DNA of 64,000 nucleotides from SAR202 cluster bacterium bin22 (lineage in GTDB: Bacteria; Chloroflexota; Dehalococcoidia; Lucifugimonadales; UBA3495): positions 62,001 through 126,000 of the forward strand of contig MPMM01000010.1 of the NCBI GenBank assembly GCA_002238505.1. The letters run 5' to 3'. A program made the translations under genes and the position numbers. Shown here in pieces: positions 58,440 to 62,023 of the stretch (within the stretch, counting starts at the first letter, position 1; each line of letters starts with the position of its first letter). The notes under the pieces are model-generated. The model was not told where the DNA came from. It was given only the letters and a program-made list of their open reading frames with translations, and ran no database searches.

Positions 58440-59186
58440 ATGACTTTGATCAATACACCAGAAGAATTCTTGAGGGCCCTCAGGGAAAATCCTGAGTGGC
58501 GTGAAGCGGTGCGCGCCCAGATTTTAGGCGATGAACTTCTTAACCTCCCTGCCGCGCTGCAAGCGTTGACCGAAACAGTCAACAGGTTCGTCGCCAGGCA
58601 GGAACAGTTCAACGAAAAGCAAGAGCAGTTCAACGAAAGGCAGGAACGGTTCAACCTAGGACAGGAGCAGTTTAACGAGAGGCAAGACCAGTTCAACGAT
58701 GACCAACGCCAATTCGGCCGAACTGTACTGACCAGGTTAGACCGGATGGAAGGAGACAGTTCTCGCTTGAAAGGGGATTACTCCCTGAGACGAGTGAACG
58801 AATCTGCCGAATTCATAACTCTTGACCTCGGTTTGCAGTACGAACGGAACATGACCAGGGGCGAAATGGCAAATATTGCCGTAGTTGCAGCGTCGGGTCA
58901 GGCCCTGTCAAGTGACTTGAAAAGCTTCCGAAATGCAGACCTGGTTATAGTCGCCAGAGAAAACGGGCAAACTCAATATCTGGCCGTAGAAGTTTCTTAT
59001 ACGGCCGATCAAAGGGACACCCGGAGGGCCATCCGCAACGCCCGAATCCTTTCGGAGCAGACCGGGCATGTTTCCAGACCTGTGATCGCCAGCGTTCGTA
59101 ATACGCGCGAAGTGCAGGAAGAAGTGGATGCAGGCCAGGTCTATTGGCATCAACTGCCTGACCGTGATTCACAGGATCAGGAATAG
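58440..59186 (+). CDS. Coiled-coil protein with nuclease-like C-terminal domain
   Basis: A 248-residue protein in three parts. Residues 1-55 form a helical head (EEFLRALRENPEWREAVRAQIL). Residues about 56-95 contain five or more heptad-like units built on QEQFNERQ, a long coiled coil. Residues about 110-240 resemble the PD-(D/E)xK-like domain of DUF3782-type proteins (YLAVEVSY, with an acidic residue before the strand, and PVIASVRNTREV). Active-site residues were not confirmed. The downstream TTG gene starts 11 nt after the stop, so it may share the transcript with the UGSC module. A regulatory or nuclease function is inferred. Confidence 0.65.
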   Translation: MTLINTPEEFLRALRENPEWREAVRAQILGDELLNLPAALQALTETVNRFVARQEQFNEKQEQFNERQERFNLGQEQFNERQDQFNDDQRQFGRTVLTRLDRMEGDSSRLKGDYSLRRVNESAEFITLDLGLQYERNMTRGEMANIAVVAASGQALSSDLKSFRNADLVIVARENGQTQYLAVEVSYTADQRDTRRAIRNARILSEQTGHVSRPVIASVRNTREVQEEVDAGQVYWHQLPDRDSQDQE

Positions 59187-59197
59187 AGGAGACCAAA

Positions 59198-60253
59198 TTG
59201 ACCCAAGAAACCACCACCGCAGCATGGAACGACATTTTTGGAGCCGTTGAAGCCCTGTATGACCTGGGCTGGACTGATGGTCTGCCCGTGCTGCCGCCCA
59301 CGGCCGACAAGGTCGCCGAGTTCCTGGCCGCCGGCGGGCGCCAGGGCTCCGAAATTGTCGGTGAGCTGCCCGAACGACGCAGGGAGATAACCGCCGAGAA
59401 GGTAGCCGCCAATGCGGTGATGGCCGGCTGCAGGCCCGAGTATATGCCGGTGGTACTGGCGGCGGCCGAGGCCATGCTGGCGCCGTCCTTTAACCTGGTA
59501 GGCCCCTCCTCCAGCATGGGCGGGGCCGCCGTACTGGCAATCATCAACGGGCCGATCGTCCAGGAACTGGGCATTAATTCCCGCAACAACCTCTTTGGCC
59601 CCGGCAACCGGGCCAATTCCACCATCGGCCGGGCCGTCCGGCTTATCCTGATGAATGCCTGCGCCGCCATTCCCGGCCTTTACGACCGCAGCGTTATCGG
59701 CCACCCGGGCAAGTTCAGCTACTGCATCGCCGAGGCGGAGACGGAGACCCACTGGACTCCCCTGCACGTGGAACGGGGCTTTGCCGCCGACCAGAGCGCG
59801 GTTACTGTCTTTGCTTCCGAAGCGCCGCGACAGGTACGCTCGGTGGGCCATCCGGAAGCCATCCTCTACGCCATAGCCGACGTGGCCTCATCCCTGGGAA
59901 CGTCCCTGTCCACCTCAGGTTCCGTGGGCGACCCGGCGGCAGGCATCCGGCAGGGGGAAACGGTGGTCACCATCGCCGGGAACAGCGGCCTGTGGAAGGA
60001 TTGGACCAAGGCCGGCGTAAAGGAATTCCTTCACTCCCGAATCCAGCGGTCGGTGGCCGATTTCAAGCGGGCGAGGGTGTTCCCCGGGGATCTGGAACCC
60101 GGAGACGAGGAGCGGATGGTACCCCTGACTGCCTCCCCAGAAGATATTCTGGTAGTATTTGCCGGAGGCGAGGAGTCCAACATGTCCTCGGTAATTCCCA
60201 GTTGGGGCCCCAAGGTCGGGTCTACCTCGGTCACCAAAGAAGTGCGCCGGTAG
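59198..60253 (+). CDS. Conserved-looking partner of the UGSC selenoprotein (unknown function)
   Basis: A 351-residue protein without a signal peptide or membrane segment, starting at TTG 59198 with GAGGAGA six nt upstream. It has compact conserved-looking motifs: LGWTDGLPVLPPT, ANAVMAGCRPEYMPVVLAA, NSRNNLFGPGNRANSTIGRAVRL and GHPGKFSYCIAE, with two or three Cys (one in MAGC, one in NACAA, one in SYC). I do not recognise the fold. It is followed 71 nt later by the UGSC gene. The arrangement suggests a two-component enzyme in which the selenoprotein is the small redox subunit; this is inference. Confidence 0.7.
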   Translation: MTQETTTAAWNDIFGAVEALYDLGWTDGLPVLPPTADKVAEFLAAGGRQGSEIVGELPERRREITAEKVAANAVMAGCRPEYMPVVLAAAEAMLAPSFNLVGPSSSMGGAAVLAIINGPIVQELGINSRNNLFGPGNRANSTIGRAVRLILMNACAAIPGLYDRSVIGHPGKFSYCIAEAETETHWTPLHVERGFAADQSAVTVFASEAPRQVRSVGHPEAILYAIADVASSLGTSLSTSGSVGDPAAGIRQGETVVTIAGNSGLWKDWTKAGVKEFLHSRIQRSVADFKRARVFPGDLEPGDEERMVPLTASPEDILVVFAGGEESNMSSVIPSWGPKVGSTSVTKEVRR

Positions 60254-60274
60254 AGGCCTGTCCAGCAATAATCA

Positions 60275-60302
60275 CTTAGTGAACATTCGTGTCTATTCGT
60301 GG
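60275..60302. repeat. Dispersed repeat (ATTCGTG type) upstream of the UGSC gene
   Basis: CTTAGTGAACATTCGTGTCT followed by ATTCGTGG. It is the same element family as the palindrome at 60882-60937 on the other side of the gene (TTAGTGAA...ATTCGTG). Confidence 0.65.
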
Positions 60303-60324
60303 AAAAGAAACGGGAGGAGGGAAT

Positions 60325-60855
60325 ATGAGCGAATACACCCTGATAAATCCTACCACTGAGCCGGTAACGCCGCCCTTCGACGGCGCTCCCCGCCTGCCCA
60401 CCATGGCCGGCGCCAAAGTGGGCATCATTGACGACAGCAAACGCAACGCCGACGTGCTGCTGGAGGAACTGGCGGAAGTGCTGCGGACCCGCTACGAAAT
60501 TAGCGACGTTCAATGGCACCGCAAGCCCAGCGCTTCCAGGCCCGCCGACCCGGCGGCCATCGCGGCCCTGGCCACCGACTGTGACGCGGTGGTCATTGCC
60601 ATCGGCGATTGAGGGTCCTGCAGCGCGTGCAGTGTGCACGACGGGATTCACGTGGAAAAGGCGGGATTGCCTTCAGCCACCATCTGCACCGACCGGTTCA
60701 TCCCCACCGCCAGGGGCATGGCCAAGATGTGGGGAGCCGCCGACTACCCCACCATTTTCACCGAGCACCCAATCGAGAACCTGGACCGCTGGCAACTGCG
60801 GGAACGGGCAGAGGGATTGGCGACCGAGGTGGTGACGATACTGACGGGGAGTTAG
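60325..60855 (+). CDS. UGSC-family selenoprotein (in-frame TGA = selenocysteine)
   Basis: The gene runs from ATG 60325 (GGGAGGAGGG upstream) to TAG 60855 and encodes 176 residues with one in-frame TGA at 60610-60612, codon 96. The local sequence AIGD-U-GSC-SAC-SVHDGIHVE is the hallmark of the UGSC family, where the first residue of the motif is Sec or Cys. Residues 99 and 102 are Cys. The N-terminal half (GAKVGIIDDSKRN, VLLEELAEVLRT, DAVVIAIGD) has a Rossmann-like beta-alpha pattern. The frame is unbroken by indels, so readthrough is more likely than a pseudogene. Function is unknown but thiol/selenol redox chemistry is expected. selA, selB, selC and selD are not in the window. Confidence 0.85.
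60616..60646 (+). promoter_or_regulatory. Candidate bacterial SECIS hairpin
   Basis: Directly after the TGA (60610-60612), an upper stem CGTGCA (60626-60631) and TGCACG (60635-60640) closes a GTG loop. A lower stem TCCT (60616-60619) and GGGA (60643-60646) can form around an internal loop. The loop G lies about 20 nt past the UGA, within the usual bacterial SECIS distance. Folding was done by eye. Confidence 0.55.
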
Positions 60856-60881: not shown

Positions 60882-60937
60882 CCACGAATATTCACTAATG
60901 GTTCCCCTCGATTCCCTTCATTGGTGAGTATTCGTGG
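60882..60937. repeat. Long palindromic repeat downstream of the UGSC gene
   Basis: Arms CCACGAATATTCACTAATG (60882-60900) and CATTGGTGAGTATTCGTGG (60919-60937) match at 17 of 19 positions with an 18-nt loop. It is related to the half-element at 60275-60302. It may also act as a terminator. Confidence 0.75.
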
Positions 60938-61701: not shown

Positions 61702-62023
61702 GGGAATGCTCTGCTTTCTAGAACTCTCGCGGTTGATTGAAGTGGGGCCGGAACATTTTATGGGCGCCGAATAGCAGGGTCAAACGGCAGGTACAGGCGC
61801 TTAGATTATTCTGGTGGAGTCTCTTCTTCCCTTCGCCTTGGCAAATCCAATGGCAGCCCGGGATGACTCAACAAGGTCACCAGGAACGGTTACCGGAGAC
61901 TGCCATCAATAATCCGCGACCCTGACTTAAGACGGGCTTCCCTTGACTATACCCCGGCTAAGGATACAATCCCAACATTAGCAGCGGACATTTAAGCCGG
62001 CCATTCGCCAAGGAGGCAGCACC
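61702..62023. other. Intergenic region, no gene seen
   Basis: About 320 bp between the divergent CopD-like and SDR genes; it should hold both promoters. The only ORF is short and not protein-like. AAGGAGG at its right edge is the SDR ribosome binding site. Confidence 0.5.

Follow-up and report, generated by a model that had tools for sequence, protein, structure and literature searches.

Among the described proteins closest to the system considered here are GrdB, of glycine/sarcosine/betaine reductase, and PrdB, of D-proline reductase, both of which carry a C-terminal selenocysteine (Sec) domain. According to the available portions of a 2026 review, GrdA and GrdB of glycine reductase are selenoproteins, and thioredoxin (Trx) is the reductant (PMC13188914). 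The UGSC selenoproteins were described from metagenomes by Zhang and Gladyshev in 2008, in a paper whose available text counts them among the commoner marine selenoproteins, with 255 Sec sequences in the Global Ocean Sampling survey, and reports a UGSC/"Unknown_1" fusion, in which the second part is an unnamed conserved domain with a conserved Cys (PMC2398784). No function for UGSC is named in the accessible parts of the literature searched. The present analysis concerns a window of 64,000 nt (positions 62,001 to 126,000 of contig MPMM01000010.1, assembly GCA_002238505.1) from SAR202 cluster bacterium bin22, in which a UGSC-family selenoprotein gene (60325..60855, + strand) lies downstream of a gene for a 351-residue protein of no named family (59198..60253, + strand), hereafter called the partner. 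Comparison of these two genes across genomes and plasmids supports, at the level of sequence, the view that they constitute a conserved functional pair.

A Conserved Gene Pair

In the window, the partner gene begins with TTG and the UGSC gene with ATG, the frame of the latter staying open over 176 residues once an in-frame TGA (60610..60612, + strand) is read as Sec96, the U of the motif U-G-S-C. Only 71 nt separate the genes, and direct reading places a ribosome binding site ahead of each start, AGAGGAGA (59185..59192) for the partner and GGGAGGAGGG (60312..60321) for UGSC, both on the + strand. The adjacency and the ribosome binding sites that the sequence-only reading of this DNA had noted are thus confirmed.

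Genome searches returned at least 570 relatives, the best 80 of which were kept as genome loci, most of them from one bacterial class. Of the plasmid records, 24 contain the partner and 11 contain UGSC; 18 loci were fetched (17 from the partner list and one from the UGSC list), with L013 nearly duplicating L026. Computation shows the pairing and fusion of the genes, their joint divergence, the signals for decoding Sec, the homology of the Sec domain and the gene neighbourhoods. The partner adjoins UGSC in 71 of the 80 genome loci, the two stand side by side in 17 of the 18 plasmid loci, and all four UGSC copies of the window genome are paired with a partner. In the window's class, 245 genomes were covered: 73 hold both families, three hold UGSC only (G158, G191 and G202), none holds the partner only, and 169 hold neither.

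The order of the genes varies, with 56 of 86 pairs running partner-UGSC and 30 running UGSC-partner. A check for fusions, which covered the UGSC-first order, found single frames without an intervening stop in the window genome itself (contig C22, L021), in Acidovorax (L015), Variovorax (L025), Sporomusa (L011) and Vibrio (L014), and in L089, L098 and L099. The two families have also diverged together: over the 86 pairs, UGSC and partner distances correlate at r 0.907, the largest value from 1000 permutations being 0.113. Nearest neighbours agree in both distance matrices for 27 of 28 same-genome paralogues, the exception being the fused window-genome copy L021, and this agreement argues against species phylogeny alone as the cause. 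A structural model of the natural fusion L099 (537 aa, with Cys in place of Sec) reached a pLDDT of 93.2 and a pTM of 0.92; since UGSC makes up about one third of this chain, such a pTM suggests that both domains are confidently placed relative to each other. The earlier proposal of a two-gene module is thus borne out by a partner beside most UGSC genes, by fusions and by matched divergence, and no clear unrelated function was found for the partner.

A variant arrangement occurs on the haloarchaeal plasmids L016, L023 and L027, where two different partners flank one UGSC gene in the order partner-UGSC-partner.

Selenocysteine Decoding

Judged by its sequence, the window's UGSC gene qualifies as a selenoprotein gene through a conserved TGA, Cys-containing homologues, a downstream hairpin and the Sec machinery of its genome. 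TGA occupies the Sec position in all 80 genome loci, which were found with patterns that omit the Sec codon, and plasmid homologues from haloarchaea, Arthrobacter and others have Cys in that column. A Sec insertion sequence (SECIS)-like hairpin, CGUGC-AGUGU-GCACG (60626..60640, + strand), starts at base 17, with the T of the TGA as base 1, and its five pairs are 100% paired across 47 sequences. Covariation is seen in 20 double-sided changes at two of the pairs, of which 19 are C-G to G-C swaps at one pair and one is a double change at the other; the swap is partly silent in the protein (Val GTG versus GTC), which favours RNA structure as the explanation. Sliding the hairpin's partner columns abolished the pairing, and the single-sequence fold is unexceptional on its own (z -0.45). 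The window genome also gave matches for selA (541.7 bits), selB (348.3 bits) and a candidate tRNA-Sec (67.5 bits); the tRNA-Sec search matches control-set genomes as well, so that the score counts, and 67.5 bits lies well above the other tRNA-like matches.

On a Paracoccus plasmid (L026, 6378-13125), the annotation breaks the UGSC gene at the TGA into two hypothetical proteins, and selB lies about 4.5 kb away.

Kinship of UGSC with GrdB and PrdB

The window protein, with its motif region IGDUGSCSACSVHDG, belongs by curated cut-offs to the UGSC families PF24696 (1.2e-55; 188.8 bits versus a cut-off of 25) and NF041046 (148.9 bits versus 125), in which its Sec stands in the UGSC motif. Those entries state neither function nor partner; the partner, the kinship with GrdB and PrdB, the neighbourhoods and the paralogue expansion are added here. 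Profile comparison found the UGSC Sec domain homologous to the C-terminal Sec domain of GrdB and PrdB (hhalign 95%, E 4e-8, 97 columns), with a common layout of a strand, U-G/P-x-C, a helix and E-x-x-G-[IL]-P, and the weak NCBIfam matches of the UGSC protein fall in the same GrdB/PrdB family, where its 21.5 bits lie under the curated TIGR01918 cut-off of 65.45. The UGSC protein does not have the N-terminal half of GrdB, and the partner is unrelated to GrdB or to GrdE/PrdA. The partner had been considered as a detached N-terminal half of GrdB and as a GrdE equivalent, and both candidates were discarded, the former for want of any match to GrdB and the latter on an hhalign probability of 0.1%.

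In the fused-protein model, the UGSC domain looks flavodoxin-like. Its 50 best structural matches include flavodoxin-like, receiver, PurE, LarB and B12-domain folds (Z 8.7 to 11.3), together with a designed protein and a chain of the MCR activation complex, and no thioredoxin fold is among them. The available portions of the selenoprotein literature call UGSC Trx-like or group it with Trx-fold proteins (PMC2398784, PMC13188914), a label that the model neither suggests nor excludes.

Short PrdB-like proteins comprising only the C-terminal part of PF07355 are also encoded elsewhere in the window genome, at L144 (contig C39) and at C53:155111-155596, and the C39 copy carries an in-frame TGA.

The Partner Protein

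The partner had been described from sequence as a 351-residue protein with Cys motifs and no recognised fold, and both parts of that description held up. Of its three Cys residues, at positions 78, 155 and 176, C78 is retained by 91 of 93 relatives and C176 by 85 of 93. Indeed, D27, N72, C78, N140, R145, E179 and W186 are each kept in 91 or 92 of the 93 partners, a pattern of conservation that looks like an active site. The partner and 37 relatives gave no convincing Pfam family (best E 0.033, from one member), this 38-member set had no sequence relative in the PDB (best profile value 0.074), and the window protein had no NCBIfam match (best 0.034).

The partner model is itself of high quality (pLDDT 90.1, pTM 0.91) and had no Foldseek match under E 1e-3. 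The best match was to two-subunit, class I fumarate hydratase (E 2.6e-3, prob 0.63, TM 0.26 to 0.31, rmsd 16.4), followed by cyanuric acid hydrolases (E 3.7e-3). With TM values of about 0.2 to 0.3, rmsd values above 12 and no sequence similarity found, the likeness to both enzymes probably reflects a shared arrangement only. VIA-align gave no match at Z 8 or above (best Z 6.1 over 84 residues). Tubulin/FtsZ fold matches were discarded, as they mostly covered about 85 residues in a common arrangement.

Gene Neighbourhoods

A gene for a thioredoxin-reductase-like protein with a CxxC motif (trxB) lies within 3 kb of the pair in six of the 18 plasmid loci, all six of which have Cys forms of UGSC; the Arthrobacter locus reads trxB-trxA-partner-UGSC. 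Seven genome loci have thioredoxin genes within 3 kb, on the opposite strand, and the idea that thioredoxin genes are constant neighbours of Sec-type loci was discarded on the 80-locus counts.

Genes of transport and catabolism are found beside the pair as well. Solute-binding proteins of the TctC type made up six of 108 neighbour proteins in a mixed set, which is biased in that it comprises 103 of 132 adjacent proteins (mostly short ones having been dropped) and five added by hand (one each from L012, L025 and L028, and two from L010). Solute-binding proteins of the tripartite ATP-independent periplasmic (TRAP) or ATP-binding cassette (ABC) types occur near the pair in annotated plasmids, and some loci adjoin genes for coenzyme A (CoA) transferases, CoA ester lyase, HMGL-like proteins, malonyl-CoA genes, aconitase X, MmgE/PrpD and DUF6282.

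A Proposed Enzyme and Its Alternatives

On balance, we think it rather probable that the pair forms the two subunits (a single chain in some species) of one catabolic enzyme, substrate-diversified and thiol- or selenol-dependent, that resembles the GrdB/PrdB enzymes without being a member of their family. The sequence-only reading had pictured a large subunit joined to a redox-active selenoprotein small subunit, and that picture fits the fusion model, the kinship with GrdB and PrdB, and the thioredoxin reductase neighbours of the Cys forms; the complex and its catalysis, including nucleophilic reduction, the electron route and the substrates, we infer. UGSC, a small flavodoxin-like domain, would present its Sec or Cys where a helix begins, placed as in the Sec domain of GrdB and PrdB. 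The partner, through its conserved polar residues and C78, would bind and activate a small organic solute, probably some carboxylate, once it has been imported, and would stand in for the pyruvoyl subunit. Sec or Cys would then attack a carbon of the substrate, and the oxidised or substituted selenol or thiol would be reset via the second Cys of U-G-x-C and then by the thioredoxin system. By analogy, it is the kinship with GrdB and PrdB that suggests such an attack and the subsequent release by a second thiol and thioredoxin. Paralogous pairs might differ in substrate, each being linked with a transporter binding protein of its own, and the several families of binding proteins, along with the number of paralogues, point to many imported substrates.

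Several observations count against this proposal. Nine of the 80 genome loci have no adjacent partner (L044, L046, L047, L048 and L051, which are mutually similar, and L067, L080, L101 and L076); UGSC itself is broken into frames in L101 and starts at a contig edge in L076, and all eight genomes searched among these nine hold partners elsewhere. The plasmid partner at L029 has no UGSC gene beside it, and the Fisher value for co-occurrence over the 245 genomes (1.9e-59) ignores descent. Near the Sec-type genome loci, trxB was found at only one of 80, and there 8 kb away. The neighbours fix no substrate, with CoA transferases, malonyl-CoA genes, aconitase X, PrpD and glycyl radical enzymes each appearing once or a few times. 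PF09338, the pyruvoyl subunit GrdE/PrdA, had no match in the window genome (GrdA and GrdC/D lay outside that search), which excludes the way in which glycine reductase activates its substrate. Finally, the fusions of Sporomusa termitida (L011, 7281-9005) and Vibrio europaeus (L014, 6323-8008) read GDMGT, with Met in place of Sec or Cys, so some members do without the nucleophile; they represent either a subfamily with a changed reaction or a sign that the thiol is not central.

These Met-type fusions, both of which adjoin aconitase X/DUF126 genes, could belong to a non-redox enzyme, such as a lyase, hydratase or isomerase of hydroxy acids, in which Sec or Cys would be a helpful but dispensable nucleophile, base or metal ligand that thioredoxin keeps reduced. 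Lyase-type neighbours (CoA ester lyase, HMGL-like and MmgE/PrpD) speak for such an enzyme, as does the partner's weak best fold match to two-subunit fumarate hydratase (E 2.6e-3, TM 0.26), but that match, at an rmsd of 16, lies under any usable threshold. Since almost every member retains U/C-G-x-C, the Sec domain is kin to reductases and redox-active trxB neighbours occur in six of the 18 plasmid loci, we regard a non-redox enzyme as unlikely, while still the most credible of the alternatives.

It is more doubtful still that UGSC serves as an antioxidant or repair protein of thioredoxin fold with the partner as an accessory factor. Such a role would agree with the UxxC-type motif and with the listing of UGSC beside Trx-fold proteins in the accessible part of the recent review (PMC13188914), whereas the 50 best matches of the fused model (Z 8.7 to 11.3) include receivers, B12 domains and flavodoxin-like folds and lack thioredoxin, the Sec-domain kinship is with GrdB and PrdB, the neighbours are transport and catabolic genes, and more than 100 copies in one genome are ill-suited to housekeeping redox repair. 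As for the adjacency being an accident of layout inherited in one lineage, with the proteins acting separately, the nine loci without an adjacent partner and the origin of most loci in one bacterial class can be cited in its favour; given both gene orders, fusions, paralogue co-divergence within one genome, the pair's presence in bacteria and haloarchaea, and adjacency in 88 of 89 cases in the expanded genome described below, it is hardly to be believed.

Expansion of the Pair

Twelve further genomes, chosen because their loci hold UGSC, were searched, and all twelve have both families, eleven of them with 2 to 24 UGSC and 2 to 26 partner matches. A far larger number was encountered in a groundwater metagenome-assembled genome (MAG) of about 5.0 Mb, Chloroflexi bacterium NC_groundwater_644 (G255, the source of L096), with at least 137 UGSC and at least 150 partner matches; 137 of 208 UGSC and 150 of 239 partner candidates were scored, and all that were scored matched. 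Identical match rows suggest that this MAG, possibly of mixed strains, is also G027 of the 245-genome set, which is from the window's class and is 96% complete and 7% contaminated.

In 765,001 bases fetched from this genome (L158-L197), mostly picked for holding matches, 89 UGSC domains were read, of which 85 have the Sec motif, none has Cys and four have no readable motif. For 88 of the 89, a partner lies on the same strand within 500 nt. Identity between closest paralogues ranges from 33 to 80% (median 68%), and the copies are thus not assembly duplicates. A hairpin of at least five pairs follows the TGA in 82 of the 85, compared with 48 of 85 for a control stretch taken farther downstream and with 61% of shuffled sequences. 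When the register of the window family's hairpin is held fixed, 19 of 37 pair fully, so that in other copies the hairpin seems to be displaced. The tRNA-Sec was not seen in the fetched bases, and no search for Sec machinery was made of the whole genome. Of the same-strand neighbours within 250 nt, 45 of 89 are SBP_bac_5 binding proteins by Pfam and 49 of 93 by a local profile, which also matched 53 of 382 genes not adjacent to the pair. Four glycyl radical enzymes and four PrpD proteins were seen among the neighbours.

The upper bound for bacteria given in the available text of the review is 63 selenoprotein genes, in a Methylomirabilota MAG, the previous figure having been at least 57 (PMC13188914), and the 85 Sec copies read from the sequence of the groundwater genome exceed that published record. 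It is conceivable, and we put it forward tentatively as somewhat less secure than the enzyme itself, that the pair represents a class of selenium enzyme not described before, which has diversified in the manner of a catabolic superfamily coupled to transporters. In certain Chloroflexota and Betaproteobacteria, tens to well over 100 Sec pairs per genome, many of them accompanied by a dedicated binding protein, would then break down different organic solutes through selenol-driven chemistry and amount to the largest selenoproteome known.

Smaller expansions are present in the MAGs G257 (L099, titled beta proteobacterium) and G260 (L106, titled Bordetella parapertussis), with 24 and 21 UGSC and 26 and 21 partner matches, respectively.

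Prior Description and Significance

The sequence-only reading had taken the enzyme to be undescribed, which needs to be qualified: UGSC is a named family, and the available text of the 2008 paper already reports the UGSC/Unknown_1 fusion, that is, UGSC joined to a conserved unnamed domain with a conserved Cys (PMC2398784). Unknown_1 is probably the present partner. The paper, as far as its available text goes, reports the fusion, whereas the separate-gene pair, its neighbours and the structural model come from the present analysis. No description of the pair, its relation to GrdB and PrdB or its expansion was found in the accessible portions of the literature searched, which did not extend to subscription papers and preprints. 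No paper linking SAR202 to selenoproteins was found there either, and selenium terms gave nothing relevant in the available parts of PMC5395668, PMC6946804 and PMC10444878.

The pair may be an overlooked route for breaking down dissolved organic compounds. If more than 100 selenoproteins of the same family do operate in one bacterium, the supply of selenium could hold back the cycling of dissolved organic carbon in a manner not yet taken into account, and annotation that ends at the TGA conceals this. The near-constant partner, the carriers of Cys forms (Arthrobacter, Roseovarius, Variovorax and haloarchaea) and the co-encoded binding proteins make the function of UGSC directly testable.

Other Features of the Window

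Rfam matches near both genes were sub-threshold and eukaryotic or viral only, and were discarded. A phage origin of UGSC was likewise discarded, as UGSC had no match in the phage collection. Around the UGSC gene, a 19-nt repeat related to ATTCGTG..ATTCGTGG occurs at 60284-60302, 60882-60900 and 60919-60937, including one inverted pair, and across the whole window, the repeat has seven matches with up to three mismatches, versus 0.31 expected.
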